Shown here in pieces: positions 8,918-33,274 of a DNA stretch of 64,000 nucleotides (the stretch's first letter is position 1; each line of letters opens with the position of its first letter). Made by a program: the position numbers and the translations under genes. This DNA is from Thiomargarita sp. Its GTDB lineage: Bacteria > Pseudomonadota > Gammaproteobacteria > Beggiatoales > Beggiatoaceae. The notes under the pieces were generated by a model, which saw only the letters and a program-made list of their open reading frames with translations, was not told where the DNA came from and did no database searches. The DNA lies in the NCBI GenBank assembly GCA_020721005.1, contig DYNP01000007.1:62001-126000 (forward strand). Direction: 5' to 3'.

Positions 8918-8998
8918 GTCGGGTACCAGTTGATGTTGTTTGAATACTTGAATCATAGTGTATTCAAACAGGATTGAGGTCAAAGAAGGAATGGTTGC

Positions 8999-15865: not shown

Positions 15866-17989
15866 TTAAAATATATCAAAACACTGGGTATCCATCACCC
15901 ACAGCCCCTGACTCAACGTCTCAAACACATCTCCCCCTTCTGGTGACAAAATCCCAAATAAGCAATATTGCCCAGTGGGTAAGGTGTCCGGCAAAGTCAT
16001 GTCTATCCACGTCACCGGTTGCGTTTGAACACGTCGTGCCCGCCACGGTTTGGGTTCATTCAACGGGGCAAATTCGTTGAGAGTTTTCAAGGTGACAAAG
16101 GTTTGACCATCGGGTAAGAGGACCGCAGTATATAAATCATACCCCCAGCCTAACTCCTCGGTCAAGGTGGCTTTGAACATTTCACCACGTTGGTAACGGT
16201 CTTTCTCCAAGTGAATTTGGACTTGGGCTGTCGTTGGTGGGTCAATGCCATCCATAACAGTAATCACCACGGGCAAGTCGCTACTGGCAATATTGCCTTG
16301 ATTGTCTTCGGCATAGAAGGTCACTTGATAGTCACCGTTATAAATCGCTTCTTGCCAAGTCGTTTCCCAAACATCCTTCTCACTCTTGGAGATACCCAAA
16401 ACTAACCTCGGTAAGACTAGAATTGGGGTGCCGTTGCTATCCATGACCAGATTCATTTTGGGAGGACGAATGACCGCCCACACTCGTTCAATCAGCCCTG
16501 CGGCGAGGACGGCTTTGGCTTTCAGTGGCAATGGGGTGCCGGCGGCTACTGTGGTGGAAGAGGTTAAACTCTCCACCGCCAAGGTCAAATCACCCGCCGC
16601 AAAACTGCCGTTGAGATAAATTTGCTTTAACCATTGGCCCTCGTCACTGCCATCATCAAATCGTGGCACTTGACCAATTTCAATGCTGCTGCCTGTACTG
16701 GCCGTGATCAGTTTCGACATATCACCTAACAACTTGGTTTGTTCACTACCCGCATAACCAAAGGCTTCCCAGAAATTCATCCCTTTGAGTAATCCCGCGG
16801 CAAAGAAGCGATTGAAGCCGCGTTTATCAGTGCGGTCAAAGTAAGCCAAACCGTCGCTGGTGCTACTAATAATGGCACGGTTAGGGGCTTTGAGTTGTTC
16901 TAACAGTTGTCCTGAATGACACGCATCAATGACCATCATCACTTGATTGCCCGTGACCGTTTGATAATCGTCTAACCAGGTTTTCAAGGCGGTGACTTCC
17001 ATGTATTCTAATTTGCTTAACTGGAACTTCTCCGTACCCCCGTGATCCACGAAAAACAGATACAGTGGTTGGTCCAGTTTGCCCAGTCCCTTGGCCCATT
17101 CCAAAGCCAGTCGAACATCTTCTGGGGTAAGAGGACGTTCTGGGTTGGGGGCATCGACAATACTGTCATCTAAGCCATCCCCGTTGAAATCGGCCCAGGA
17201 TTTGGGGGAAAGGTAATAAATCTCATCATTGTCAAAGCCGCGTTTGTTAAAGACTTTGTAAAGGTAACTGGTGATAGCTTCAGTCGTGTCCCAGAGGGTG
17301 TTGGAACTGTCGGCACCTCCACCAGCAATAAGGATAGCGGCACGTTTGTTCGCCCCAGAATTCTCTGTGTTGTAAACGGTCCACTTGTCCTGTCCACTGT
17401 GGTGCGCTAAACCACCATTGGTGCCAATCCACACCCCACCTTGATCGTCACCAAGCAAGGAAAAAATATAGTTACCTGGCAAGTTGTTAGTGTTGATAAA
17501 AATCTGCTGAATTTCTCCCGTTTGGGCATCACGCTGTTCCAAGCCTCCACCCGTCCCTACCCACAAGGTCTTGCCATCTTCCGAAAGGGCTAACGCAGTT
17601 ACCACGTTTCTGTTGGTAAATATCTCCCACTGAGCTTTCTCCGGTGAGAAATCATTGGGCGGAGTGATGACGATTTTAAGCGTAGCCACATTCCCTCCTC
17701 CATCCATTACCGTCACCACATCCAATCCCACTTGCACCGGTGCCACATAAGTCACCTGTGTCGCCGTCCCCTGAATTTGCCCTTTGGCGACCGTCCAAGT
17801 CACTTCTCCACTGGTGTTTGAGACTGACAACGTTATCGATTTTCCCTGTTCGACAATGGGCGTGGTGGGCGTAAAGGTGAGGTCGGAGGCTTGACTGATA
17901 GCTGACAGGAGGAGAAGGAAGAGTCCCAGTAGTGGGGAATGGTGACAGTGATAAAAGGAGAATTGAAAAAAATGTTTTGGTATGTTCAT
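15866..17989 (-). CDS. Secreted caspase-like (C13/CD-clan) peptidase with Ig-like domain and two propeller repeats
   Basis: The 707-residue protein has a signal peptide (hydrophobic core about 19-31, cleavage near 'SQAS'), an Ig-like domain (about 36-108), two two-component-type propeller repeats ('LWVGTGGGL', 'GGVWIGTNGGLAH', about 120-208) and a caspase-like peptidase domain (about 215-440). The catalytic dyad is visible: H316 in 'LFFVDHGG' and C357 in 'VIDACHSG'. A calcium-loop-like 'DFNGDGLDD' (268-275) lies between them and the domain start. Two C-terminal beta-rich regions follow, the last ending '.LPTGQYCLFGILSP'. It is probably exported to the periplasm or cell surface. The organisation is shared with 18265-22140 and the broken gene at 31211-32914. 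Its substrate is unknown. Two propeller repeats cannot close a propeller on their own, so this part is probably a deletion remnant. Confidence 0.87.
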   Translation of the reverse strand: MNIPKHFFQFSFYHCHHSPLLGLFLLLLSAISQASDLTFTPTTPIVEQGKSITLSVSNTSGEVTWTVAKGQIQGTATQVTYVAPVQVGLDVVTVMDGGGNVATLKIVITPPNDFSPEKAQWEIFTNRNVVTALALSEDGKTLWVGTGGGLEQRDAQTGEIQQIFINTNNLPGNYIFSLLGDDQGGVWIGTNGGLAHHSGQDKWTVYNTENSGANKRAAILIAGGGADSSNTLWDTTEAITSYLYKVFNKRGFDNDEIYYLSPKSWADFNGDGLDDSIVDAPNPERPLTPEDVRLALEWAKGLGKLDQPLYLFFVDHGGTEKFQLSKLEYMEVTALKTWLDDYQTVTGNQVMMVIDACHSGQLLEQLKAPNRAIISSTSDGLAYFDRTDKRGFNRFFAAGLLKGMNFWEAFGYAGSEQTKLLGDMSKLITASTGSSIEIGQVPRFDDGSDEGQWLKQIYLNGSFAAGDLTLAVESLTSSTTVAAGTPLPLKAKAVLAAGLIERVWAVIRPPKMNLVMDSNGTPILVLPRLVLGISKSEKDVWETTWQEAIYNGDYQVTFYAEDNQGNIASSDLPVVITVMDGIDPPTTAQVQIHLEKDRYQRGEMFKATLTEELGWGYDLYTAVLLPDGQTFVTLKTLNEFAPLNEPKPWRARRVQTQPVTWIDMTLPDTLPTGQYCLFGILSPEGGDVFETLSQGLWVMDTQCFDIF

Positions 17990-18264
17990 AAAGTCAAGAC
18001 TTTTTTCGCTTAAAGTTTTGATTTGGCATCACAGGACTTTACTCTTAAGTGTGGTAAAGTTAAGGACAATGAATTTGGGAAGAAAATAGATAAACCATAA
18101 CTGATGATCATTTATTCACTTTCCCAATTCATTAGTTTTTGATACAAACTGTGCCATAACTTTACAGATCACAAATTGATAAGGTTAGCGGACGAAACCA
18201 TTCCATAGTACTTGCAGTTTATTTACGTCGATTCCTTGATCCCTAACCTATAATTCAGGGCACA

Positions 18265-21200
18265 TCAAGGTGTTTTGTTCACCACTTCTGCACACCACTT
18301 TACTTCTACTTGTGACGCTTGTGTTTCTGGTGCCGAAAAATCCTCTTTAGCAGGTGATAAAATTCCATAGATACAATATGATCCTACCAAATCTACCAAT
18401 TCCATGTCTATCAAGGTAAGTGGGGTATTGGGACTCTTTTTCCCTGTCCATTTTTTGGCTTGGTTAAAGGGTTGGAACTGATTGGTATCTGTCAAAGTAG
18501 CAAATGATCCGTCTGGAAAAGTTACCATCACATACAGATCATATCCCCAATTTAATTGTTCCGCCAATTGGACAGTTAGGCGTTCTTGCACTTCATAAGT
18601 ATCTTTTTGGGGAATTAACGTTACTTCCATGTTCGTCTCAGAAGGCAAGTCTATACCTCCTGTTACGGTCACAATCACAGGAGAACTGCTGGCACGATTT
18701 TTTTGATTGTCCTCCGCATAAAAAATTAATTCATAATCCCCATTATAAGTTGCTTCTCGCCAAGTTGTTTCCCAAATACCAGCATCCACTGTGGGTAAGA
18801 GAGTTAGAAAAGGTAGATCTAAAATAGGGGTCCCATGCTTATCTAACACCAAGTTGATATGCGGTGGTTTTAAGATTGCCCAAACATGTTGCAAATATCC
18901 TTGAGTTACGTTCACCTGAGCCTTAAGAAGATGTTTTTGACCGGCAGCTAAATTGGTGCTGCCAGAGGAAACCAATTCTTTTATCGACACTGGGTTGGCA
19001 CGAGGAAAATTCCCGTTGACAAATAGGGTCTGCAACCAGTCGTTATTGCCGCTACCGTCACTGAACTTGGGTTCTTGACCCAGTTGTTCGATTGGCTGTT
19101 TAGAGGATTCCGCTATTCTGGGCAGAATTTTTGTTTGTTGCATACTGGCAAATTCAAATGCTTCCTTAAAACTCTTGCCTTCCGACAAGCTATCGGCGAG
19201 GAAACGACTGAAGCCTTGTCGCGCAGGCGGGTAAAAATATGCTTTTCCGGAACCAGTAGTACTGCTGATAATGGCACGATTGGCACTGGGAGAAAGCTCT
19301 TCCATTAAGGAACCAGACCAACAGGCATCTATTACTACTACCATGGATGAAGAGGTAGCAGCGGTATACTCGTCTAAAAAACCTCTAAGTTGGGTAGCTT
19401 CCAATGTTGTCGTATTACTCAACTTAAAGTACAGTTTCTGATTTGAGTCTTCCGCACCATGGTCCACTAAAAAGAAATACAGAGGTTGGTCCAGTTTACC
19501 TCGTCCTTTAGCCCATTCCAAGGCTTGTTGCACGTCGCTGACTTGTAAATTGCCTTCTGGTTGAGGGGCATCCACTGCCCGATCATTGATCCCATCACCA
19601 TTGAAGTCTGCTGAGAGTTTGGGGGAAAGATAATAAATTTCGTCATTCTCAAATCCTCTTTCATACAACATGTGGTAAATGCTATTGATAATGCTTTCGG
19701 TCGTCTCCCAGAGGGTATTGCTATTGTCATTACCACCACCAGCGATGATGATGGCAGCCCGGTTGCCTTTGAGGAGGGCATCACAGGCAGCGTCATCTAG
19801 GTTGGCGTTGTTGCACAGGAAAGCATTTTTACTCAAGGTGAGATAAGCAAGACCAAAGGCAGTTCCTACCCAGATACCTCCTCTACCATCACTTTTCAGT
19901 GCAATCACCTGGTTATCCGGCAGTCCGGAATTTTGGGTATTGAAGATTTCCGTGGTGCCATCTGGATTCAAGTAAACCAAACCACCTTGGTCAAAAGACA
20001 AACTGTTCACGGCCTCCGTGGAACTGCTGTCTGCCGTTATTTGGGACATGTCGATACCTAAAATTCCTGCCCACACGCCATTCCTGTCATCGGCGAGTAA
20101 AGTTTTGATGATACCATTACTGGGTAGTTCCGAATTGCCTTGATTAAATACCTGCCAGGTTCTATCGACTTTCAAATGAGCAATGCCGCTCATCATTGTG
20201 CCCACCCATACACCTCCTTGGTTATCAGATGCCAGGGACATCACAGAATTTTCTGGCAATTGTGAATTACCGATGTTAAAGATCTCCCAAGTTTTATCTG
20301 CCCGTAAATATGCTAATCCCTTGAGGGTGCCTATCCATAAGCCTCCTTGGTTATCGGTTGCCAGAGTAGTAACCCTATTGTCTGGCAATTCCGAACTCTC
20401 CGCATCGAAGAGTTCCCACGTCTGGTGGTCTGCCAACAAATGCGCAATACCGCCACCTTGTTGAGCAGTCTGATCATTTCCAGCTATCCAGACTCCTCCT
20501 GCACCGTCATGAACCACCGTTTGCACTATTGCCAGATTACCCGGCAATTTGGAAGTGTGGGGATTATCAAAGATGCTAAAACCAAAATCGGCTTTGCCGC
20601 TGGGAGGAAAGTGAAGGAGTGCGCCAAAAGTTCCTATCCACATCCCATTTTGACCATCGTTACTGACGGACAAAGCTAATTCGTCATATCGAGTACTCCA
20701 AACACCTTCCGCACTTAAGTGGGCGACGCCACCTTCCCCCAACCTTGCAACGTCTCCTCCAGCTACCCAAAGTCCGCCGTTTTTATCACTGTCGATAGCC
20801 ATGACAATGTTAGACGGGGCATCCTCTTTGACGGACGTTAAAGTATCCCAAGTGCCATCGTTATGTAGATACACTAACCCATTCACAGTACCTATCCAGA
20901 TACCTTCACGATTATCCGCTAAAATGGCCGGGACAGCTGGGTGAGGTAAGGTCGTTTCGGAAGGTGTAAACACTTCCCAAGTGCCATCGGGATGACGATG
21001 CACCAGACCACCGGCTTGGGTGGTGAAATCGTTATTAGTCAACCCGGCCCAAACACCTCCTTGTTTATCTGCAGTGAGTGACCAAACAACATTTCCTGGA
21101 AAAGAGGGAACGTTGCTGGTATTAAACACTTCCCAATTTCCCTGAGCATCGCGATGCACAAGACCTCCGCCACTGTCAACAGGTAAGTTTAGGTTATTCT

Positions 21201-22140
21201 CACCAGTCCCTATCCACAGTCCCCCTTGACCATCCGAAACGAGGCGAACGACACGGTTATCGGGTAACTTGGAATTGGTGGTGTTGAACACTTCCCACTG
21301 TTGATCCGCAAAGAGATGTGCCAGTCCTTGACGAGTGCCTACCCACACTCCTCCTTGACCATCTGGAACGGGGAAATAGGTCCAGGTATCGGGCAATTTG
21401 GAATTGTCGGGAGTCAACAATTCTGCAGGTTTATCAGCATGAAAATGTACTAAACCACTTTCTTGCACTGTTATCCATAAGCCACCTTGACCATCAGCAG
21501 CAAGAGAGTTGATACTTTTACCGGCTGTAAGAGACTGGAGAATTTTATCTTCTTCAATCCATTTTTTGATTTGTCCATCTTGTTGCAAGTACGCTAATCC
21601 GCTTTGAGTACCCAGCCATAGACCACCTTGAGCATCTTCCAGTAAGGTTTGGATAAAGTTGTGGGGCAATCCTTGTTGAGTGGTGTAGACACGGAGGAGT
21701 CGCTGAGTTTTTGCCTCCCGTTGTTCTAGTCCGCCCGACGTGGCTATCCATAGAGTTTCTTTATCCTCCGACAAAAGAAGTCCAGCAATCGTGCGACGGT
21801 TAGTAAACACTTTCCAATTGGCATTTTCAGGCACGAAAGTACCTGCGCGGACCACTATAATTTTGCAGGTGCTACTGTTGCCACTGTCATCGGTGACCAG
21901 GACATAATTTACCCCTGCTTCTGAAGGGGCAGTATAAGTGGCTTGATAGCCCACGGCACTTTGTATTTGACCTTTTGTAGCGCTCCAATTCACGGGACGG
22001 TCAGTACCAGTCATGAAGAGGGTTAGTGGTTTATTCGTCTCGACCACTGCCACAGCAGGAGTGATTTGAAGACCGGTTGCGAATAGATACGGCGTCAAGA
22101 GAAGCAGGCACCATAAACTGTGATGTGTATGATACTTCAT
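18265..22140 (-). CDS. Secreted caspase-like peptidase with 14 propeller repeats
   Basis: The 1291-residue protein has a signal peptide (about 1-23), an Ig-like domain (about 25-97), then about 14 repeats of the two-component regulator propeller type ('GGLWIGT..GL' followed by a 'W.vF' strand) over residues 108-768. That number fits two seven-bladed propellers. A caspase/legumain-like domain follows (about 793-1010) with H894 in 'FLVDHGAE' and C940 in 'VIDACWSG', and an EF-hand-like 'DFNGDGIND'. The C-terminal region matches the paralogue at 15866-17989, including 'GSYCIYGILSP'. Propellers of this class usually sit in sensor kinases of Bacteroidetes-type polysaccharide systems; here they would position a peptidase, perhaps on glycans or surface proteins (inference). 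Confidence 0.88.
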   Translation of the reverse strand: MKYHTHHSLWCLLLLTPYLFATGLQITPAVAVVETNKPLTLFMTGTDRPVNWSATKGQIQSAVGYQATYTAPSEAGVNYVLVTDDSGNSSTCKIIVVRAGTFVPENANWKVFTNRRTIAGLLLSEDKETLWIATSGGLEQREAKTQRLLRVYTTQQGLPHNFIQTLLEDAQGGLWLGTQSGLAYLQQDGQIKKWIEEDKILQSLTAGKSINSLAADGQGGLWITVQESGLVHFHADKPAELLTPDNSKLPDTWTYFPVPDGQGGVWVGTRQGLAHLFADQQWEVFNTTNSKLPDNRVVRLVSDGQGGLWIGTGENNLNLPVDSGGGLVHRDAQGNWEVFNTSNVPSFPGNVVWSLTADKQGGVWAGLTNNDFTTQAGGLVHRHPDGTWEVFTPSETTLPHPAVPAILADNREGIWIGTVNGLVYLHNDGTWDTLTSVKEDAPSNIVMAIDSDKNGGLWVAGGDVARLGEGGVAHLSAEGVWSTRYDELALSVSNDGQNGMWIGTFGALLHFPPSGKADFGFSIFDNPHTSKLPGNLAIVQTVVHDGAGGVWIAGNDQTAQQGGGIAHLLADHQTWELFDAESSELPDNRVTTLATDNQGGLWIGTLKGLAYLRADKTWEIFNIGNSQLPENSVMSLASDNQGGVWVGTMMSGIAHLKVDRTWQVFNQGNSELPSNGIIKTLLADDRNGVWAGILGIDMSQITADSSSTEAVNSLSFDQGGLVYLNPDGTTEIFNTQNSGLPDNQVIALKSDGRGGIWVGTAFGLAYLTLSKNAFLCNNANLDDAACDALLKGNRAAIIIAGGGNDNSNTLWETTESIINSIYHMLYERGFENDEIYYLSPKLSADFNGDGINDRAVDAPQPEGNLQVSDVQQALEWAKGRGKLDQPLYFFLVDHGAEDSNQKLYFKLSNTTTLEATQLRGFLDEYTAATSSSMVVVIDACWSGSLMEELSPSANRAIISSTTGSGKAYFYPPARQGFSRFLADSLSEGKSFKEAFEFASMQQTKILPRIAESSKQPIEQLGQEPKFSDGSGNNDWLQTLFVNGNFPRANPVSIKELVSSGSTNLAAGQKHLLKAQVNVTQGYLQHVWAILKPPHINLVLDKHGTPILDLPFLTLLPTVDAGIWETTWREATYNGDYELIFYAEDNQKNRASSSPVIVTVTGGIDLPSETNMEVTLIPQKDTYEVQERLTVQLAEQLNWGYDLYVMVTFPDGSFATLTDTNQFQPFNQAKKWTGKKSPNTPLTLIDMELVDLVGSYCIYGILSPAKEDFSAPETQASQVEVKWCAEVVNKTP

Positions 22141-22199
22141 ATTGATTTCTCAGTTTAGCTAACAATTCAAAAATTTGGGTCGAACAGTGATCGGGTTTG

Positions 22200-22269
22200 T
22201 ATAGGGTAGGTTTATCGTCACCAAGTCCATGGAATTCACAAGAAGGGGTAATGATTTGCCCACCCTATA
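22200..22269. repeat. Small inverted-repeat element
   Basis: Near-perfect inverted ends (TATAGGGTAGG at 22200 and CCCACCCTATA ending at 22269, one mismatch) enclose a 48-base non-coding core; complementarity continues partially inward. It occupies the gap between the caspase-like gene start and the upstream gene's stop. It resembles the 'TAGGGTGG' end of the repeat near 57010. Confidence 0.4.
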
Positions 22270-22281
22270 CCAGTTATTGGG

Positions 22282-25176
22282 TTACTCTGTTTGCCAGAAT
22301 ACTTCTTTTGTACCATCTGCCTTTATATATAACACTTGTACTGCAGGTTTTCCTGCCCCAAATTCCCCATAACTGTCACAAAACAGAGTTCTAACATCCG
22401 CAATTTGGTTTGAAGATTTTGTGGAAAAGGCACTATAACCTCCGCCTTCATGGTCAATCCAACCGCCTGTCACTGCGCCATATAATGTGTTACCCTTAAT
22501 AAACGTTCCTAATTGACCACGTGGAGAGAGAAGTTCTCCAGTTATCACAACCGCATAAAAACCAGGCTGTAACAACGGAGTAACATAGTTTTTTTCTGGA
22601 ACTGCTGAAGGTTGTTTGAAAATGGTTAACCAGTTGTTTCCAACCTGTCGTATTACCTTTAGATCAAGAGAAGGGTGGTTTTTTAAAAAATCGGATACAG
22701 TTACTTCTACGGCTTCAGTTTCACCAACGGAAAAGCCAATCCAACTGGGAGACAATCCATTTTCGCGCAGTGCCACTCCTGCATAGAATCCACCTGGATA
22801 GGGAATAGCTGTGCCGCGGCTACGGAAGGGTGAGATGGACATGGTATCTACTAACAGACTCCAGACTCCTGGTGGTTGATTGGTTGGCAAAGCAGCTTCG
22901 ACAATGTAGAAGCCTGTGTGCTCTAATGGAATGGTATAATGTTCTTCTTTAGTTTCCCCACATTCGACCCTATCTGCCACATACGTTCCACCGGTTTCCA
23001 TCATGATTTTGCGTTTGATAGCCGTCGCATACTGGTCAAAATTCTGGATGAGGGAGACAAAGCCGCAATTGGTTTGACCGGTGGTGGTGCAAATGGGTTG
23101 GGGTCTGACCATCGCGGTCAATTGGGCCTGGTCCACACCGGTACCCACACCTAACGCATTGATGGCATCGACTCCTTTTGCTATCGCATTAGATGCCGCT
23201 GTTGAAGCATTACTCTGTCCGTCTGTAGAAACATCAATAATTTGTTTTTCGGAAGTGAATTTAAATTGGTCAGTGCAGAAAGTAATGGCGCCACCAATAT
23301 CTGTTCCTGTGCTAATAGGAAACTGTTGGATCCCACGAACTTGAGCTGCCACTGCATCAGCAGTAGCTTGACTGTCTATCAGGGTAGGAGGCACTTCCAG
23401 TTGTGGGGTACCTGAAAATTGCACCACCGAAATCGTGACAGTACCATCTTTGGGGAAGACTGCCGGGTCTTGAATAGCATTGGCTAAACCATCCAACTGT
23501 TTTTGGAAGTTAAGCGGATCACCTCCAGAAAGAGGATCAGTGATGCTACTGGAACCGTCTATAGCGGTGCAAAGTTCGATGGTTTTGGCAGTGATTACGG
23601 GTTGGGCTGGGGGAATTTCTCCAGTTCCTATGCCAGTTACTGAAATTTCCTCCAAAATGGGACTTATTCCGTCTTGTGCGGGTCTCAAAATCACTTCTAA
23701 CTGCAAAAAACGCCCTGACAAAGGGGGATTAATTTCTATACCATTAGATGTTTCCACAAAAGGTTGTTTCCCAAGTCCTGCTTGAGTATCCTCTGATCTG
23801 GAACGAACGGTTATTTTCCCACCATTATCCTGGCTTATCCAACTTATCGTCTTCCAGGCTGTTCCCAGTTGATTGCTGTCATACACAACCATCCAACGAC
23901 CTTGTGGATCGGTATTGCCTAAAGCGATGGTGCCAGTCATATCGCTGTAGTTGTAGGGACCCGCACCCGCACCCAAGTCCACTACCAAATCCACGGTGTT
24001 GGTGGCGGGGTCAATTCGCATGGCGTTGTCGGAATCCAAGTTAGTTATCCAGACTTTACCACGGGCATCTATCGCAACACCAGTGGGTTGCCACCCCTTA
24101 TCCTTGTTCGGTCCCCATCCCTCATCTTGATTCAAATTGATTACTGCCAATTCGTTGCCATCATTATCAAGTCGGGTGATCTGGTTATAACCAGAGTTGG
24201 CTATCCAAACGTGATTATCTGCCGGGTTGACAGCCAGTCCTCTACACGTAAGTTGTTTGCCCTGAAGGAGTTCCTTACCATCATTGGCCACTTTGACAAC
24301 TACGTTTGGACTGTACCGACAATTCCAAATGTTACCCTGTGTGTCTATAGCCAGACCGTAAGAGTCAGGGGATGGAAGACATTGCGCCTGCTTGGTAGCC
24401 GGGTCATAACGTAACAGTTGGCCGGTACTACGGCCAGAAGACCAGAGGACACCGTTTTTATCTACCAATCCACCATAGCCACCACAAGACATGGGAATGG
24501 TCTCAACAACCGTACCGGTGTCGCCCGCTATCAAAGCAAATTGAGGTGTACCATTAATCCCCGCTACCCACACATTATTGTCTGGAGTGATAGATACCGA
24601 CCGTGTGCCACCATTCCCGGCGCGAACATAATGCAAGATGCACTCGTCTTCCGCAGTCGTTATACCACCTTGATTATCCACTCCATCCTTATTGGTCCAT
24701 GGCTTCACATCTCCCAAACCAGTGGAAGTGTCAATTTGACCATTACCGTTACGGTCAACACATTGGAAATTTTCCGCCAGACCAATATGAGTCACGGAAC
24801 CAGTATTGTTTTCCGCTTCGTTACGATTACCCACCCATACGTTCCCATTCTGGTCAACCGTGGTCCGGGAAGGATTACGACCACGCCAATCGGGAGCTGT
24901 ATAATATTCGCCCAAAATTTTGCCAGTCTCCGTATCCACTTTGACCACCGTTCCCTTGTTAGATAGGGCAATCCAAATGTAAGGAAACGTGGTCAAATTG
25001 GCATTTAGTTGCAGTTGGTTAGCAACTACACTGTAATTGAGATTGACGGCTGTACCTTCGTTAAAATCAGCATCAAAAGTATAGACCTTGCTGATGACAT
25101 TCGTGGTTTGTGCCGCCACGCTGGTAATCGCACAGGATAAAACTGCGGCAATTATAGATTTCAGTCCTATGTTCAT
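22282..25176 (-). CDS. Secreted NHL/Vgb-like propeller plus von Willebrand A domain protein
   Basis: The 964-residue protein has a signal peptide (about 1-22, 'TSVAAQ'), then NHL/streptogramin-lyase-like propeller repeats (about 65-400, repeated 'GNVWV..', 'NHVWIANSG', 'GKVWITN'). A calcium-loop-like segment 'DRNGNGQID' sits within it. A small beta domain (about 425-520) precedes a von Willebrand factor A domain related to DUF1194 (about 530-740) with an intact MIDAS start 'DGSSS' (540-544). The C-terminal ~220 residues are beta-rich and unassigned. The ATG has 'AGGAGA' upstream. The vWA region is closely related to that of the next gene (25275-27650), including 'VSTDGQ' and the 'GFVSLIQNF' block. 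A ligand- or matrix-binding surface role is inferred. Confidence 0.84.
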   Translation of the reverse strand: MNIGLKSIIAAVLSCAITSVAAQTTNVISKVYTFDADFNEGTAVNLNYSVVANQLQLNANLTTFPYIWIALSNKGTVVKVDTETGKILGEYYTAPDWRGRNPSRTTVDQNGNVWVGNRNEAENNTGSVTHIGLAENFQCVDRNGNGQIDTSTGLGDVKPWTNKDGVDNQGGITTAEDECILHYVRAGNGGTRSVSITPDNNVWVAGINGTPQFALIAGDTGTVVETIPMSCGGYGGLVDKNGVLWSSGRSTGQLLRYDPATKQAQCLPSPDSYGLAIDTQGNIWNCRYSPNVVVKVANDGKELLQGKQLTCRGLAVNPADNHVWIANSGYNQITRLDNDGNELAVINLNQDEGWGPNKDKGWQPTGVAIDARGKVWITNLDSDNAMRIDPATNTVDLVVDLGAGAGPYNYSDMTGTIALGNTDPQGRWMVVYDSNQLGTAWKTISWISQDNGGKITVRSRSEDTQAGLGKQPFVETSNGIEINPPLSGRFLQLEVILRPAQDGISPILEEISVTGIGTGEIPPAQPVITAKTIELCTAIDGSSSITDPLSGGDPLNFQKQLDGLANAIQDPAVFPKDGTVTISVVQFSGTPQLEVPPTLIDSQATADAVAAQVRGIQQFPISTGTDIGGAITFCTDQFKFTSEKQIIDVSTDGQSNASTAASNAIAKGVDAINALGVGTGVDQAQLTAMVRPQPICTTTGQTNCGFVSLIQNFDQYATAIKRKIMMETGGTYVADRVECGETKEEHYTIPLEHTGFYIVEAALPTNQPPGVWSLLVDTMSISPFRSRGTAIPYPGGFYAGVALRENGLSPSWIGFSVGETEAVEVTVSDFLKNHPSLDLKVIRQVGNNWLTIFKQPSAVPEKNYVTPLLQPGFYAVVITGELLSPRGQLGTFIKGNTLYGAVTGGWIDHEGGGYSAFSTKSSNQIADVRTLFCDSYGEFGAGKPAVQVLYIKADGTKEVFWQTE

Positions 25177-25274
25177 AGCATAGTATCTCCTAATAAAGTT
25201 AATTGAGAACAGTTAATGAAAAGTTTGCAAAACTACATTGGGAATCTAAAACAAGTTCTAGACTCCGGTTGAGT

Positions 25275-27650
25275 TTATTTGATCACTACCACAGTTACGG
25301 GTTGTTCGCTGTGCACTAACATGCCATCTTCTTGCAGCCGATAACCAAAAGTAATTTTGAAAATCCCTGAAAAAAATACACCTTGGTATAAGACCACTGG
25401 TTGAGTAAATGACAGCTCCACGCCATTTTCTAAAGGGACTAAAGTGGCTGGTGTCTGATCCCAAGGCAAAAGATTTCTTTTCGAGTCAAACATTAAATAC
25501 GTTGGTTGATCATCCTCTGAATCCTGATAAGTGGCATAAACTACAATATCCGCTAATTTTCCAACTTGGAGCGGATCTACAGTGATCCGACCATGAATGT
25601 CTATGGAATCAGTTAATTGTTTAACAGTTGCTTCGGTTTGAAATTCTCCTTTATCAATAGATATACCTCCTGATAAAGAGGTTGCAGTAACTGCCATCTC
25701 TCCCGTAGCAGAGATTGCCACTGCACCTAGTGCAGGCAGTTCGGTCGGCATTTGTCCTGACGAATCGACAGTCACCCCTTCTTCTAATTTAACTTTGTCG
25801 CCTAAAATCACACAAGACAAATGACTGCCTTGCTTAACTGTCAAACTTTCTAGACGTGCTGGTGCCTTACAGTCACCTTGAATATTTCCTGCCAAAAGAC
25901 CGCCATAAATACTGGTGTTAGCCGCCAACTGCACATCCTGAAAATAGCCACCAACCCTGCTGATGTTAACAATTGTGCCTCCTAAAATTCCTCCCTTAAT
26001 AGAACGGCCACGAAACACAAAATCCGCCATATAACCCTCATTGCCGATATAACCTGTGACAGTGCCCCCGGTAACTTGAGCCCCCGGCTTGATGGTTAAA
26101 TTAGACACCCAGCCCTCGTTTTGAAGAATACCCTCCACTACTGCATTAGAAAGATTACCTACATTAATCCATTTGTCAGTCGTATTGGCTTGTACATTGA
26201 GATTAATCACAGTGGCACCGCCAGCGTTACAAACCCAATCCATCCAATCTCCGCTAGGTGGACAATCAAAACTCATCATTGGGGTTGTTCCCGTAATTTC
26301 CGCAATCATTTTAGCTTTGATGGCTTGTTGATAATTTTTAAAATTGTTTACCAATAAGAGGAAGCCACATTCGGTGCAAGGAAGTTGCGGTCTAATAATT
26401 TCTTCCAAATTGGTTTTATCGATCCCACTTCCTACCCCAATAGCGTGAATGGCATCCACCCCATTGGCCATGAGGGTTTCTAAAAATTCCTCTGACACTG
26501 CAGCTTGCCCATCTGTAGAGATATCAATAACTTGTTTATCAGCCTTGAAAGTAAATTGTTTGGCACACAATTCAATGCCTGCCTGAATACTGGTACCACC
26601 CTCAAACTTTTTGAAAGCCCGAATCTGATTGGCTACCGTCTGAGCCGTGGTTTGGCTATCGATGACAACAGGAGAAATTCCATATCCTTCATCAATGGTT
26701 GCATTAGAGGAAAATTGCACTACAGACAAGGTTATACTTCTATTTGGAGGAATTACGCCAAGATCCTCAATGGCATTTGCCAAACCATTGAGTTGGAGTT
26801 GAAAATCAGTCGTACTAATGCTACCGGAAGCATCGATGGCAGTACAAAGCTCCACAGTTTTGGATTCCGAATATACTTCAAAAGTAGAAGGGAGGGGAGG
26901 AGTAATTGGCATTGAAGAAGTGATCGGATTAAAACTTTCTCGATATTCCCAACTTAAAATGTCATGATTGCTAAAGGCACCTCCTGTTCCAGAGGTAAAG
27001 CCTACGAAAGCTTGAGTGACTCCACCCAAAATGGCAGGAATGTCCAATTTTTGGCTAAGAGTTGCTTCTGAAGGTCGCACTCCAGTTTGATTGGCACGAA
27101 CCTCCAAAGTAGCACCATCATAATCTATCCAAGAAAACCAAATGTTGCCATCATCCAGTTTAGGTATCGTATTTACAACTCCACCTTCATGATTAACATG
27201 TCCATTTAGATTGATGGCAATATGGCTGGCGCTGATTTCACCATTATCCCAAGTGTCAAACTCTACACCAACACTACTTTCTATCCCTCCATAACCAATT
27301 TGACCCCCAGCACTGCCGAGGTCGGAACTGATAGGTTGTATCACGAATACAATACCATCTGCTCCCCCATCTCCCATACCCCCTGATTCTGTGATGCGAA
27401 ATTTCAAGAAAGAGCTGAAATTAGCTGCATTCAAAGGCACTTGACTAAAAACACTGCCTGCCTGGCTACCGTTGGCAGGAGTCAATCGTAAAACGACACC
27501 GTCAGTAGTCGTTACAGTGGCAGCTGACCCGTTTAACTTTAGGGAAGAAGTATCAGTAAAATTGTTAAAATCCATCAAGGCTAGACAAGGGTTAGCCAAT
27601 GAACAACTCAAAAATATAGCATTTGCGATAAATATCAGTTTTGTATTCAT
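25275..27650 (-). CDS. Secreted lectin-like plus von Willebrand A domain protein
   Basis: The 791-residue protein has a signal peptide (about 1-24). A legume-lectin-like beta-sandwich follows (about 25-240), recognised by 'DGIVFVIQ', 'VGVEFDTWDNGE' and the downstream 'SHIAINLNG'. A DUF1194-type vWA domain (about 265-460) has MIDAS residues 'DASGS' (273-277). After this come short glycine-rich repeats resembling beta-helix rungs (about 490-640). The C-terminal module contains 'VVYATYQD' and 'LPWDQTP', resembling the N-terminal part of the neighbouring C11 peptidase and the C-terminus of the caspase-like proteins. It lies in a same-strand series with the NHL-vWA gene downstream. A carbohydrate-binding, metal-dependent adhesive protein is the most likely role; the ligand is unknown. 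Confidence 0.82.
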   Translation of the reverse strand: MNTKLIFIANAIFLSCSLANPCLALMDFNNFTDTSSLKLNGSAATVTTTDGVVLRLTPANGSQAGSVFSQVPLNAANFSSFLKFRITESGGMGDGGADGIVFVIQPISSDLGSAGGQIGYGGIESSVGVEFDTWDNGEISASHIAINLNGHVNHEGGVVNTIPKLDDGNIWFSWIDYDGATLEVRANQTGVRPSEATLSQKLDIPAILGGVTQAFVGFTSGTGGAFSNHDILSWEYRESFNPITSSMPITPPLPSTFEVYSESKTVELCTAIDASGSISTTDFQLQLNGLANAIEDLGVIPPNRSITLSVVQFSSNATIDEGYGISPVVIDSQTTAQTVANQIRAFKKFEGGTSIQAGIELCAKQFTFKADKQVIDISTDGQAAVSEEFLETLMANGVDAIHAIGVGSGIDKTNLEEIIRPQLPCTECGFLLLVNNFKNYQQAIKAKMIAEITGTTPMMSFDCPPSGDWMDWVCNAGGATVINLNVQANTTDKWINVGNLSNAVVEGILQNEGWVSNLTIKPGAQVTGGTVTGYIGNEGYMADFVFRGRSIKGGILGGTIVNISRVGGYFQDVQLAANTSIYGGLLAGNIQGDCKAPARLESLTVKQGSHLSCVILGDKVKLEEGVTVDSSGQMPTELPALGAVAISATGEMAVTATSLSGGISIDKGEFQTEATVKQLTDSIDIHGRITVDPLQVGKLADIVVYATYQDSEDDQPTYLMFDSKRNLLPWDQTPATLVPLENGVELSFTQPVVLYQGVFFSGIFKITFGYRLQEDGMLVHSEQPVTVVVIK

Positions 27651-27790
27651 GGTATACTATTCTCTAACAGTCGCTAACAAAAAAAACAGTCTGCCCAAAG
27701 ACAAACTGATCTAATAAACTTCTACACCTGACTAACAAACAGATAATCTGAAGACAATCTAAAATCTTGGACCTTTAGTTGATTCGTCGT

Positions 27791-30121
27791 TTAATTACTC
27801 AAATAAACTCCCGATTTGACATTGAGTTTCCGGCATCCTTCATCTCCGCCAGGCGCCGGGTCAAAGTCTTTTTCTTGGCAGAAACAATTTGACAACCCTT
27901 TGTTGTTACACAGTGTATCAAATTGGCGCTGTCCGTTAAGTCCATAATAAGCCACTGCTACCGCGGATTGAGCATCATCGCAATGACGCTTAAGAATGAC
28001 AGTATCGGTATTGACAACAACCAAAGGGTTACCTTGACGGACTTCTAATTGTTGGTCTTGTAAATGTAAAGTGTTGGGAATTACAGTATCTTCTGGATAA
28101 AGAGTATCATCGCGCCCCCAAATCTCATCTGTTTGTGGTGTCATTTGGCAAACTGCCCATTGCCTATCAGTTTCCCAACTCGCCTCATCACCACAGAAGG
28201 AAAGAACGGCAGGAGATTGATTAACTTGAACTTCGGCTAACAATTGGTAACGTTGCGCAGCCATGGGTTGTTTTTTCACAGTAAGATTTTCACACTGTGA
28301 CTCATTGATACAAAGTTGATATTGACAAGCTTCTTTGCCTTCGGCACCAATATTATGGTCCTCTGGATAGTGAGGATATTGAAGTAATGTTTTTACCAAA
28401 TACAGACTCATTTCGGCACTGTCTTTAGCTTGTTGACCATAGTAACCTTCCAGTCCGATAAGTTCGCTGGCAGTAAGGTTAAGCCAATGGGCATCACCAC
28501 AAATAATACCATTCATACAAGTATCCCCATGATCGGACGGTTTAAAATCATCACTTTTGCGTTTTTGACTATAATAGTCTAAAGCCCCTTTAAGTGTCGT
28601 ATAGGCCTGAGGGAGAACTGCAAGATAGGATTTATCTTTGCCAATATCTAAACTAATTCGTCCTGCTTGAGCGTCAATACCCTTCACATTGTCATTGGTC
28701 TCATAGTCAACCACCAATGTTTGAAGTTGTGTGAGGAGACTGTCGGCATGCGTTTTTAATTCAGGAAAATCAGGCAACACCGTTTGCAAAATGTTGTAGA
28801 GATCGACACGTACATTGCGTTTTTGATCCAGGGAACGCAAGAATCGACCTGTGTCTTTAAATGGGTAGCCAGGGGCACGAATAATGCCATGACTTAGCAT
28901 TTCATAACTGAGAAAGGGACTGTTGGTGAAGATTTGGTTAAGTGCCGTGGCAAATTCAGTCAGAGTGTCGGTAACTGTTGGGAGTTTAGTAAGGTCAAGA
29001 ACACTATAGGTAATTTGAGAATTTGCAAACGTTCCCAAGTCTTTAGAGTGTTGAATGTAACCCGTTTTGACAATTTGGCCAAAGGCAACGCCGCTGTCAG
29101 GAGGAGTTTGTTGCAAGGTTTGGAGGAGGTGAGCATAATCAATTCCATGGCCAGGCTCTAATTCAGCGGATGCACTCATAGCATTAGCCAGGGTAGCAGT
29201 CACTTCGGCCACTTCGATGCTGGCCATCAGACAAGCATCGTATACTACGATATCTAAAGGTTGTGCCAATTGTGAGCGAATGGTTTGATAGGCTTGTTGA
29301 AGATCGGTAAGATGGAGGAGACTGTTTTGGCCTGCTGTCGAGGTGTCAAGACCATAACCGTTGACACCGTCGCCATGATTCCAAAGAATCAAAGCATAGT
29401 GTTGAGCAGGAAAGTGAGTCGTAGCCCAGAGCACAAAATCGCTGAGCATGTGCGGCGCAGCTAGACTTTGACTGCCCAAATCTTGGAGGACATGAAATTG
29501 ACCAGTTTGAACCATAGATCGTTTAACAGTGTTCCAACCTTCACGTCTCGAACCACCGGTGGTGAGAACAAGGTTGACCGCGTCATTGGCCACTGACTGA
29601 GTGCCATTTAACATTTCCATCAGATCTTGACTGGCCCAGTGTTGGGGAACAGATTCCAGATTGGAACCGACAATATAAACCATGACAGTCCAAAGACGTG
29701 GAGGTTGTGGTAACGTTGGAAAACTGCCGTCAAAGACACGAGTGTATCTGGTATTGGTGGCAATATCGACGAAATCACTCCCGATGCCCACATAAACGGG
29801 TATGTTCTGTAGGAGAGTTTTAGAGAGAGGTGGAAAACAGGTAGTTTTCAGTCCCAGTTGTTTTTTGATAAAAAAGGAAGGCTCCTGGATGCCATCCCAA
29901 GGAGCAGGTTGATTTTCTGCGTTGATGAAATAAAGTTGATTGCCAATTAGGGCCGCCAGATAGACCTGCCAATCGAGGTTGGAATAGTCTGGGGTAAAGC
30001 AAAATTCAAGTTCATTCTCTGTTGGACGAAGATCTATAGCCAGTTGGTCGTAAAGAGAGTAGCCATTGATCGGAAGTAAGAAACTGAGTAAAACCGAATA
30101 AATTGAGAATTTTATGTTCAT
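27791..30121 (-). CDS. Secreted clostripain-family (C11) cysteine peptidase
   Basis: The 776-residue protein has a signal peptide (about 1-22). A beta-rich module follows (about 25-130, with 'QVYLAALIGNQLYF' and 'PWDGIQEP'), then the Peptidase C11 domain (about 143-540). The catalytic dyad is clear: H249 in 'ILWNHGDG' and C297 in 'VYDACLMASIEVA'. C11 peptidases cleave after basic residues and are usually activated by autocleavage and calcium; these are family properties. A cysteine-rich C-terminal region (about 545-776) may be a binding module. This is the only C11 gene among the caspase-like (also CD-clan) peptidases in the cluster, so the locus encodes two distinct families of the same clan. 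Confidence 0.88.
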   Translation of the reverse strand: MNIKFSIYSVLLSFLLPINGYSLYDQLAIDLRPTENELEFCFTPDYSNLDWQVYLAALIGNQLYFINAENQPAPWDGIQEPSFFIKKQLGLKTTCFPPLSKTLLQNIPVYVGIGSDFVDIATNTRYTRVFDGSFPTLPQPPRLWTVMVYIVGSNLESVPQHWASQDLMEMLNGTQSVANDAVNLVLTTGGSRREGWNTVKRSMVQTGQFHVLQDLGSQSLAAPHMLSDFVLWATTHFPAQHYALILWNHGDGVNGYGLDTSTAGQNSLLHLTDLQQAYQTIRSQLAQPLDIVVYDACLMASIEVAEVTATLANAMSASAELEPGHGIDYAHLLQTLQQTPPDSGVAFGQIVKTGYIQHSKDLGTFANSQITYSVLDLTKLPTVTDTLTEFATALNQIFTNSPFLSYEMLSHGIIRAPGYPFKDTGRFLRSLDQKRNVRVDLYNILQTVLPDFPELKTHADSLLTQLQTLVVDYETNDNVKGIDAQAGRISLDIGKDKSYLAVLPQAYTTLKGALDYYSQKRKSDDFKPSDHGDTCMNGIICGDAHWLNLTASELIGLEGYYGQQAKDSAEMSLYLVKTLLQYPHYPEDHNIGAEGKEACQYQLCINESQCENLTVKKQPMAAQRYQLLAEVQVNQSPAVLSFCGDEASWETDRQWAVCQMTPQTDEIWGRDDTLYPEDTVIPNTLHLQDQQLEVRQGNPLVVVNTDTVILKRHCDDAQSAVAVAYYGLNGQRQFDTLCNNKGLSNCFCQEKDFDPAPGGDEGCRKLNVKSGVYLSN

Positions 30122-30213
30122 GAGTGATTTCTTATTTAAGGGACCAGGAGTCTAAAGTGTCTTTTTGTCTGAATAAAGCTGCACTTTGGACTCCTAGGTT
30201 ATAGTTACATAAA

Positions 30214-30984
30214 CTACCGGATATAGGGATAAACACTCACATAAGTTCTATTCCAACCACAAGACCAAACTGAAGAGGAAGTTTTGCCCCATTTCCCGTT
30301 GTTGACCGCCTCTATATAAACATCTCCACATACGCCGTTAATATTAACATCAAAGTTACCATAAGCATCCGCTGTTGCTGCTCCTACATAAGCCCAGTAA
30401 CCGTCCCAAACCCAGAAATGGACAGCGGCATAGCTGGAATTTCTCCAGCAGTTCCACGAACATCCATAAAGATATTCTTGGACGTTGCCATAAACACGCA
30501 GATAGCCAAACGCACGATCATCGCTGGCACTGGCTTCAGCGGTCAGTTTTTCTGAATCCAAAGTGGCAGACAATTCGTTATTGCCATAAAGGAGTCCGAA
30601 TTTATGTTGGCCTGGGAGTTGGTCGTTGGGAATTTTGACGGTGAGATTGAAACCATCGTCTCTGGATACGATTTCGATCGTGCCATCGGTTTCAAATTGC
30701 TTCATGGCGTCGCTGATATCAGTGCCATCAAAAGTGAATCCTTTGACCTCTTCGAGTTTGAGACCATCAACCTTGATGATGATGAAGTTCTCATCAGAGA
30801 GGTAATAGCTAATCTTGGGGGGGCCACTGTATTTGGCATCCGTTTGGTCTGTGGGAACTCCCTCTATTGGAGTACTGGCATTCGGATCCAAGTCCGAAGG
30901 GACATCCTGTGCCCAAAGAGTCGAATGGAATTGAGTTAACAAAAGGCCTAATGTTGCCGTTGCTAGAAATTTAGATAAGCGCAT
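30214..30984 (-). CDS. Small secreted protein of unknown function
   Basis: The 256-residue product starts with a signal peptide ('MRLSKFLATATLGLLL', cleavage near 'LWAQD'), followed by an acidic segment, a beta-rich middle and a C-terminal domain rich in tryptophan, tyrosine and four cysteines ('YGCSWNCW', 'GVCGD', 'SVWSCGW'), likely disulfide-bonded. I recognise no family. The ATG has 'AGAGGA' 10 bases upstream. About 90 bases of the start region, including the signal-peptide coding sequence, are repeated just upstream in a diverged copy. Its position inside the secreted peptidase cluster suggests a surface or periplasmic partner. Confidence 0.75.
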   Translation of the reverse strand: MRLSKFLATATLGLLLTQFHSTLWAQDVPSDLDPNASTPIEGVPTDQTDAKYSGPPKISYYLSDENFIIIKVDGLKLEEVKGFTFDGTDISDAMKQFETDGTIEIVSRDDGFNLTVKIPNDQLPGQHKFGLLYGNNELSATLDSEKLTAEASASDDRAFGYLRVYGNVQEYLYGCSWNCWRNSSYAAVHFWVWDGYWAYVGAATADAYGNFDVNINGVCGDVYIEAVNNGKWGKTSSSVWSCGWNRTYVSVYPYIR

Positions 30985-31108
30985 AACTTTAGAGTCCTCT
31001 AAGTTTGTGATGAGTGGAAGAGAATTGAGTTAATAAAAGGCTTAGGTGTTGCCAGAAGCCCAGATAGGCACATAATTTAAAATCCTCATAGGTTTGTTAT
31101 GAATGAAG
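30928..31108 (-). repeat. Diverged tandem duplication of a gene start
   Basis: Bases about 30928-31020 (signal-peptide codons, ATG and Shine-Dalgarno of the 256-residue gene) are repeated at about 31021-31108 with perhaps three quarters identity. Both copies start with 'GAATTGAGTTAA' on the plus strand. The upstream copy keeps an ATG with 'GAGGA' before it but would encode only a 24-residue peptide, so it is a decayed leader. Confidence 0.6.
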
Positions 31109-31210
31109 TAGCTAAAGTCGAGTAAGATAGTCCTACCAGAATGAGTTGTGTTGCAAAAACAATTGAAATTAATAAGTTGCGAGTTCTATGAAAATGACAT
31201 TTATCCTCAG

Positions 31211-32914
31211 TTATTGTACCACTTTGAAACATTTTTCATGGGTCACCCATCGTTTTTGATTCGTCAATACATTTTCTTGAGTTGGTGACAAGATTCCCAA
31301 TAGACAATATTGACCTGGTGTCAATCCCACTGGCAGTATCAAATCTAATACCGTCATCGAGTCACCTAATCGCCTATCCACCTCCCATTTGGAAGGTTGG
31401 TTTAGAGGAGCAAATTGATTTAATTGGGTCAATGCAACAAATTGAGGTGAAGGGTCGTCGGAGGGCAAAATAATGGCCACATACAAATCCATTTCCCAAC
31501 TTAACTGTTCTAACACCTCGGCTTTAAATAACTCACCGATTTGATAAACATCCTTCTCCGAAGCTACTTGAATATTCGCCTGGAAAGGAACCTCACTTCC
31601 TATCACTTGTAGTTTCAGGGGATGATTACTGCCAGTTTGTCCCTGCTGATCTATCGCATATAAAGTAACTTCATACTCACTGGGATAAACGATCTCACCC
31701 CAAAGTCCCTCCCACAAATTGGCTTCTGATGTTAATGACAAATTTATCCTTTGCGAAAGACGTGAAGGCCCTGTCTTGTCCAACAACATCTTTAACTCCG
31801 CCCACACTTGTTGCATTTCCCCACTCTAAGCGATGACTTTAGCACGTAAAGACAGTGATGTTCCCAAAATTATTCTGGGTGTTAAGAACACTTTGGATAA
31901 CCACTGACCATCTTGGTTGCTAGAAACACCGTCTCCATTGTCGTCCAACTGCGGCTGTTGTGACTGATAGTTTTTAGAATTGAGTTGAAAAGCTTCCCCA
32001 AATGAACTGCTTTGTAAACCTTTACTACCTGACACCAGAAACTCACTGAAACCTTTAAGTATGGCACCATTTTTATCATCACGACTGAACTGTGCCTCTA
32101 ATTCTGCCGCAGTACTACTGATAATCCCCCGTTGCGCCGCCGCCAGAGATTTCAACAAGGAGCCACTGTAGGAGGCATCCATCACCAATACCACCGAATT
32201 ACCCGTCATATTTTGATAATCATCCAGCCACAGTTTCAAGGTACTGGCATCCAACTTCTGGTTGGAATTTAACACCCACTTGTCCTTTTCTCCATGTCCT
32301 GCGATGAAGAAAATATATAATGGTTGTTCCAATTTCCCCAACGTGTTCGCCCAAGCCAGAGCCTCCTGAATATCTGTCGTGACCAAAGGACGCTCTGGGT
32401 CAGGTGCATCAACGATCACATCTCTTTGCCCATCCTCATTGAAATCCATCCAAACGGTGGGTGACAGATAATAAATTTCAGCATCGCTAAAACCTTTGGC
32501 ATATAGACCTCCATAAACATGTTGCGCAATTACTAGAGTTGTCGCCCAATTTGAATTGGCCTCCTCATTTCCACCCCCCAAAATGAGAATAGCAGCGCGA
32601 GAAAAAGTTAAATTAGTTAGAGTAATAGCTGGTACTACCTGAATGTTCAATATACCCAGATTTCCTTCAGCATCCGATACCATAACCACATCAGTACCTT
32701 CTTGAGCAGGTGCAAAATAAATCACTTGTGAACCACTGTCTTGAATTTGGCCATGCGTTGGCGTCCAAACAACCTCACCATAAGTTCCAGAAACTGTTAA
32801 GGTAAGTTGCTCATCTACAGCAACAACAGGTGTGGCAGGTGTAAACATAATCTCCGTGGCCTGAACCATTGATAAGTAACCAATAAACCACAAATTAAAT
32901 AAGTGAAATCGCAT
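31211..32914 (-). pseudogene. Broken caspase-like paralogue (Cys to Ser, in-frame amber stop)
   Basis: The frame from the ATG at 32914 encodes a signal peptide (about 1-19), an Ig-like domain (about 22-95) and a caspase-like domain without propeller repeats. H207 is kept ('FIAGHGEKD'), but the nucleophile position reads serine (S248, codon TCC, in 'VMDASYSG'). The frame then meets a TAG at 31826-31828. The same frame continues beyond it ('..GEMQQVWAELK') with the conserved C-terminal modules and '.TPGQYCLLGILSP', and stops at 31211. Aligned to the two intact paralogues, the stop replaces a single residue with no frameshift. The calcium-loop motif is altered ('DFNEDGQRD'). The gene is therefore doubly damaged, or makes a truncated 362-residue pseudo-peptidase. 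Confidence 0.8.
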
Positions 32915-33274
32915 TATTATTACCCCTTAATCAACTCATTGGTGAGTGAGCAAATTCCAGCTTTCCTGAAGTCTACGTAGGTCGAAATGTGGTATATTTC
33001 CATGAATACTGACAAATTAAACTTGAGAAACTGCAACCTGGCAAGAGTAACAATAAAAAAATTATGTTAAAAAAATTCTTAACCCACACACTTTTTCTTA
33101 ACTGGTTTTACGATCAATCATTTACTGCCACTTCCTATCTCACCTCATTTAAGATAAAATACCAGACTGAATGCCAGTTCATTGACCCTTTACCCAATAA
33201 ATTACCGTAAATTATGTAGGATTATTTTATATAACCACCCTCTTTACTCACCTAAAAAAGTAGATCTCATCGCC
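32915..33274. other. Divergent intergenic region
   Basis: This AT-rich gap separates the broken caspase-like gene (leftward) from the SARP-NACHT gene (rightward) and must hold the promoters of both. I found no convincing -35/-10 pair or long palindrome. A TTG at 33182 opens the NACHT frame earlier but lacks a Shine-Dalgarno sequence. Confidence 0.4.

Follow-up and report, generated by a model that had tools for sequence, protein, structure and literature searches.

Peptidase C13 proteins with exchangeable N-terminal modules and a linked clostripain gene in Thiomargarita and other Beggiatoaceae

Described relatives and the Thiomargarita locus

Propellers built from Reg_prop blades are described in hybrid two-component system (HTCS) sensors of the BT4663 type and in PorZ, each of which contains two seven-fold propellers (PMC5121618). 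Peptidase family C13 comprises legumain, an asparaginyl endopeptidase, and GPI8/PIGK. Caspase homologues are very numerous in Thiomargarita, with 59 PF00656 genes (PMC4853749). The locus considered here holds three paralogous genes, termed copies A, B and C, each encoding a C13-like core, which in copy A follows a propeller of fourteen Reg_prop blades. They lie on the minus strand between positions 15866 and 32914 of a 64,000-nucleotide stretch of Thiomargarita sp. DNA (the window), on contig C126 of a draft genome of 4.05 Mb (133 contigs, 99.7% complete), together with a gene for a clostripain (Peptidase_C11).

The blades of copy A are homologous to those of the HTCS sensors BT4663, BT4673 and BT3049, of which those solved form two seven-bladed rings. 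HTCS proteins carry kinase and regulator domains after the propeller; copy A instead has a peptidase there, and Pfam scans of A, B and C found no such kinase or regulator domain. In type IX secretion, PorZ and the PorU sortase bring a double seven-bladed propeller and a clan CD cysteine enzyme together on the cell surface, but these are two proteins with an enzyme of family C25, whereas copy A is a single chain with a C13 core; no type IX C-terminal domain model matched in general Pfam and NCBIfam scans, a dedicated comparison not having been made. Legumain and GPI8/PIGK have the fold, the DHG and ACxSG motifs and PF01650 in common with A and B, whereas their catalytic Cys is missing from copy C. 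The bacterial metacaspases (C14) of Beggiatoaceae occur in the same host group, belong to clan CD and are likewise numerous, yet they constitute another peptidase family, and A, B and C have signal-peptide-like starts in a group that carries propeller modules. The C11 gene is a member of the clostripain family. All individual parts belong to known families, and in the literature searched, the coverage of which was incomplete, neither a fusion of a double propeller with a C13 peptidase nor a C11-C13 pairing is described, and no C11 is tied to a C13-propeller partner.

On balance it is probable that the three copies represent a Beggiatoaceae family of secreted C13 peptidases in which the N-terminal recognition module can be exchanged and the peptidase and the C-terminal beta-sandwich with its end module are conserved, and within which A would be targeted and have C11 as its partner, B would be untargeted and C dead.

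The family, its modules and its clostripain neighbour

In a survey of 43 host-family genomes, the core family (counted at E<=1e-30) was present in 21, including Thiomargarita, Marithrix and Thioploca. Outside the host family it is rare, with core matches at 1e-8 in 2 genomes of other families in a wider survey of 369 genomes across the class. Copy A is an intact open reading frame (ORF) with Reg_prop and Peptidase_C13 (PF01650) both above the Pfam cut-off. The blade counts of 14, 2 and 0 that a first-pass annotation had assigned to A, B and C (18265-22140, 15866-17989 and 31211-32914, respectively) were reproduced by a purpose-built hidden Markov model (HMM), made from copy A and then refined on relatives. 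With the same blade HMM, the orthologues of A (L073:1309-5115 and L071:4511-8317, L numbers denoting loci of relatives) likewise have 14 blades, and exactly 14 were counted in 22 of the 31 Beggiatoaceae members with a complete N-terminus. A few members score 12, 13 or 15, via weak blades or chance extra matches. Three proteins stand clearly apart: B has 2 blades, L070:4694-8614 has 7 together with two cores, and L056 has 22. A protein with 6 blades (L058) may come from a disrupted gene. Propellers that are short or disrupted have been described outside this family (PMC9218822). Fourteen blades is the near-constant state of the family in Beggiatoaceae. The 22-blade C13 protein, L056:2748-7817, apparently has two N-terminal Ig-like domains.

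Other members retain the peptidase and replace what precedes it. Two proteins of Thiomargarita nelsonii (L081:2488-5061 and L081:6703-9135) have the same core and C-terminus, with leucine-rich repeats (LRR) substituted for the Ig-like domain and propeller, and a close relative (L049:1268-3787), again with the same core and C-terminus, carries LRR plus Calx-beta where the propeller would be. These LRR-type proteins are sister to a 14-blade protein (support 100/98). The C-terminal module is also found at the end of LRR proteins lacking a peptidase (L160-L165), and may be a sorting or anchoring tag. Because of the LRR swaps and of this occurrence on LRR proteins, the peptidase and C-terminus are seen as the constant part and the N-terminal recognition part as the varying one, so that the earlier view of the propeller as a detachable targeting module on a conserved protease holds in a broader form. 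The family's N-terminal Ig-like domain is also found ahead of a TauE sulfite exporter in genomes G026 and G002 (L170:1632-3920 by Pfam, L169:3-1901 by similarity only).

The C11 gene (27791-30121) sits between copies C and A. Its clade comprises 20 genes in 12 host-family genomes; 18 of these genes have a C13 gene within 4 kb, the remaining 2 are on contigs with no C13 match, and the C13 family is present in 12 of the 12 genomes that carry this C11. The linkage recurs in the relatives L049, L066, L068, L070, L071, L072, L074, L077, L081, L082, L083 and L085. Under random placement its probability would be about 5e-29, by a crude model and with related genomes not being independent; chance placement of C11 beside C13 is excluded. 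This linkage is a stronger result than the propeller counts with which the work began.

By sequence, the closest solved relatives of the A propeller are the Bacteroides HTCS sensors 3v9f (profile E 8e-90) and 4a2l (2e-77), and PorZ (5m11) is matched at E 2e-14 with a 28-row profile. Given this homology to solved double propellers of 14 blades, those of A most likely form two seven-bladed rings, and the remark in the first-pass annotation that fourteen is the number for two such rings fits. The relation to PorZ leads to a different proposal for A, namely a surface transpeptidase whose propeller would bind a surface glycan or lipid acceptor and whose C13 core would transfer proteins to it, which would make A a one-chain counterpart of the PorZ-PorU pair or of the GPI transamidase. 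The PorZ double propeller binds A-LPS, a lipopolysaccharide (LPS), and interacts with PorU (PMC8545088), the GPI transamidase has a C13 subunit as its transamidase (PMC9098846), the propeller and core of A match PorZ and PIGK, respectively, and the C-terminal module shared with protease-less LRR proteins could be a sorting tag. The proposal is nonetheless unlikely, as the PorZ model (NCBIfam NF052228) gives A 127.5 bits, below its cut-off of 260, the residue before the catalytic His is Asp in A and B, as in legumain, where PIGK has Gly (PMC9098846), and in the source genome the C-terminal module occurs on the three C13 copies only. A fuller version, with a PorZ-like propeller presenting glycan to a surface transpeptidase, activation by C11 and dead paralogues as regulators (a role suggested by the tandem dead and live cores in L070, L084 and L105), is quite improbable.

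Peptidase assignment and the histories of copies B and C

Of the C13/caspase-like core in the first-pass annotation, the C13 part stands and the C14 part does not. PF01650 scores 34.7, 30.4 and 27.3 bits in A, B and C, respectively, all above the cut-off of 22.8 bits. The A and B cores, as AlphaFold models, matched legumain and GPI8/PIGK with a Foldseek probability of 1.0, these making up the majority of best matches; paracaspase MALT1 and caspases likewise matched the A core at the level of the fold. The catalytic dyad is present in A and B (VDHG; DACxSG). Classification as a C14 caspase was rejected, since PF00656 gave no Pfam match at E<=1 in A, B or C, and the C14 genes of the source genome sit elsewhere. 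Judged from alignment and model, the core of the three copies is legumain/C13-like and not caspase C14. A profile search of the genome returned 4 C13 matches, 3 of them in the window.

This assignment counts against a cell-death or conflict system akin to the caspase-like proteins of multicellular bacteria, in which the variable modules would recognise invaders. The 59 PF00656 genes of Thiomargarita (PMC4853749), the exchange of repeat recognition modules among relatives and a NACHT gene beside copy C (33182-36283) would suit such a system. It is held to be distinctly improbable: the copies are C13 and not C14, all of them start signal-peptide-like, whereas the known caspase-like death effectors of bacteria act in the cytoplasm, none of the fetched loci of relatives contained the NACHT neighbour, and Pfam scans showed no adapter domains.

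Copy B is an intact ORF with Reg_prop and Peptidase_C13 above the Pfam cut-offs. Its nearest relatives are the 14-blade proteins L066 and L068, from two other genomes (clade support 100/100), to which its core is 94-96% identical. In blastn, B positions 1-635 and 636-2121 align to the ends of the L066 and L068 genes, and about 1.6 kb between them, from where blade 2 ends up to where the protease begins, is absent. Blade 1 of B has orthologue blade 1 as its best match. As the junction runs from blade 2 straight into the core, with about 2 bases of shared sequence at the joint, a single illegitimate deletion is the simplest event, and B is best explained as one recent deletion of 12 blades from a 14-blade parent. 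Homologous recombination between blades was rejected, as the right breakpoint lies outside the repeats and only about 2 bases are shared, which an illegitimate deletion fits better. Repeats may collapse in a draft of 133 contigs, and the short propeller might on that account be an assembly or sequencing artefact; the junction, however, joins blade 2 to non-repeat core with microhomology of a few bases at most, and genome-wide, at 99.7% completeness, Reg_prop matches occur in copies A and B only. Repeat-collapse misassembly was for these reasons judged unlikely, and an artefact is very improbable.

The ratio of nonsynonymous to synonymous substitution rates (dN/dS) of the B core against its 14-blade orthologues is 0.06-0.09. 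For core and C-terminus together, B and L066 give dN 0.060 and dS 0.459, and L066 and L068 give 0.034 and 0.276, a similar ratio, which suggests that the B protease is under purifying selection and not obviously decaying. In the model of B, with a predicted local distance difference test score (pLDDT) of 84.8, the stump appears as two four-stranded blades at amino acids (aa) 130-206 (local pLDDT mostly 80-90), although such a model is no proof that two blades stand stably alone.

The first-pass annotation saw three secreted paralogues, of which A and B are intact; copy C consists of two ORFs in one frame split by a TAG codon, and Ser replaces its catalytic Cys. Its DHG motif reads GHG and its Cys motif DASYSG, leaving His/Ser at the dyad, and C is a C13 homologue predicted to be non-catalytic. 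The C orthologues (L072:4998-6737 and L071:8779-10632) have 0 blades and frames open over their full length, with dyads broken differently, as Gln/Ser and Gly/Cys in L072 and L071, respectively. A sister pair, L052 and L078, has kept a propeller of about 13-15 blades and has Gln/Ala. All five members of this clade (C, L072, L071, L052 and L078; support 95/80) have a broken dyad, and all five are predicted to be inactive. As the surviving dyad residues differ, the constraint on catalysis was probably lost on more than one occasion. Copy C belongs to a separate, old lineage of inactive homologues. Between C and L072, dN/dS is 0.127 before the TAG and 0.167 after it (near 0.14 overall), and since it is low on both sides, selection on the frame lasted until recently, in keeping with either a non-catalytic role now cut short in the source genome or a recent pseudogene. 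Related proteins with two to three C13 cores (L084:737-4306, L105:163-3837 and L070:4694-8614) each combine at least one broken with at least one intact dyad, and these tandem live and dead cores recall the pair of caspase-8 and c-FLIP.

Whether B and C are no more than decaying pseudogenes beside a working A, with a blade series devoid of functional meaning, has to be weighed here, and is doubtful. C does carry a nonsense codon, and its active site is dead, B lacks twelve blades and has a stump unable to close a ring, and broken homologues are common, the L067 and L072 regions holding frameshifted or fragmented copies. The open frame and intact dyad of B nevertheless speak against decay, as do its low core dN/dS and a core plus C-terminus ratio near that of intact orthologues; likewise, the full length of the C orthologues despite their broken dyads, together with the C-L072 ratio, suggests a selected non-catalytic role before the stop arose.

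Stepwise gain or loss within the locus, proposed in the first-pass annotation, was rejected as a series from 14 to 2 to 0: relatives mostly have 14 blades, B arose by a single deletion and C is of an old separate clade, so that A, B and C are not supported as stages of one process. Orthologue blade number had been chosen beforehand as the test, and its constancy, mostly at 14, counts against the stepwise series and not against modularity.

Proposed function and neighbouring genes

In the reading preferred here, the two Reg_prop rings of A would most likely bind a ligand (glycan or protein) present on cell surfaces, in the mat or in the environment, and hold the peptidase at its substrate; ligand binding is proposed because solved relatives of the propeller bind sugars (BT4663, PMC5121618) or LPS (PorZ, PMC8545088). 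The adjacent C11, presumably secreted, would most likely act in the same pathway as C13, for example by activating a C13 zymogen. B, keeping the peptidase and its intact dyad with the binding rings gone, would be an untargeted or differently targeted enzyme, and C would be an old, catalytically dead, propeller-less pseudopeptidase further cut by the nonsense codon.

Several points weigh against this reading. Genomes G015, G034 and G036 have 14-blade relatives without this C11 clade, and C11 is therefore not needed by every member. Structure prediction, which gave two blades for B, was less clear for A, the AlphaFold model of which is moderate (pLDDT 72.8, predicted template modelling score 0.65) and gave no clean double-ring match in Foldseek. 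Several orthologue blades are about equally similar to blade 2 of B, and an earlier repeat contraction, that is, a two-step loss, may have preceded its final deletion. Selection on the B branch also includes time before the deletion, and B is known from a single draft genome.

The family amounts to a natural experiment in protein modularity, with one probably secreted protease found with a full 14-blade propeller, with a two-blade stump, with LRR or in dead form, and these natural variants allow the share of the recognition module in targeting to be compared. C11 and C13 are paired in several genera of giant and filamentous sulfur bacteria, and this conserved pairing points to a pathway of extracellular proteolysis not described so far, which is pertinent to a host group whose many caspase-like genes lack an explanation.

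Table 1. Coordinates of the features in the window
Feature	Position	Strand	Basis
Copy A, 1291 aa: signal peptide, Ig-like domain, 14-blade Reg_prop propeller (probably double), C13 protease, Big-type beta-sandwich, C-terminal module	18265..22140	-	ORF, Pfam, blade HMM, orthologues
Copy A propeller, aa 121-788, 14 blades	19777..21780	-	Blade HMM; PDB relatives 3v9f, 4a2l, 5m11
Copy A C13 core, aa 793-1045, dyad His (VDHG) and Cys (IDACWSG)	19006..19764	-	Motif alignment; Foldseek legumain/GPI8
Copy B, 707 aa, layout of A with 2-blade stump, intact dyad	15866..17989	-	ORF, Pfam, blade HMM, model
Copy B two-blade stump, aa 134-216	17342..17590	-	Blade HMM
Copy B deletion junction, where blade 2 ends and ANKRAAIL of the core follows	17350..17360	-	blastn against L066 and L068; junction sequence
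Copy B C13 core, aa 215-463 (VDHGG, IDACHSG)	16601..17347	-	Motif alignment; Foldseek
C-terminal module, aa 586-707 of B	15869..16234	-	Also ends protease-less LRR proteins of relatives
Copy C first ORF: signal peptide, Ig-like domain, C13-like core with Cys to Ser, ending at in-frame TAG	31826..32914	-	ORF, alignment
Copy C catalytic position: Ser codon (codon 248, MDASYSG) where A and B have Cys	32171..32173	-	Alignment
Copy C in-frame TAG stop	31826..31828	-	ORF reading
Copy C remainder past the stop: beta-sandwich and C-terminal module, no signal peptide	31211..31816	-	ORF, alignment
Clostripain (Peptidase_C11), predicted secreted, partner gene	27791..30121	-	Pfam; homologues adjoin C13 genes in at least 6 other genera
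Small protein, predicted secreted, 256 aa, no Pfam family, recurring beside C11/C13	30214..30984	-	Pfam, loci of relatives
VWA (DUF1194) protein, predicted secreted, with NHL/Vgb-type propeller, kept beside copy A in G007	22282..25176	-	Pfam, loci
L-type lectin and VWA (DUF1194) protein, predicted secreted, C-terminal part conserved in G028	25275..27650	-	Pfam, loci

The gene order C, 256-aa protein, C11, VWA-propeller protein and A is common to the window and G007. The 256-aa protein is aromatic-rich and is a candidate substrate or inhibitor. The NACHT domain protein directly upstream of copy C has hydrophobic stretches. Scanning the window for Rfam families and tRNAs gave no match. Further away, a protein beside signalling genes (7940-8983) shows a weak match to a Card1-like endonuclease.

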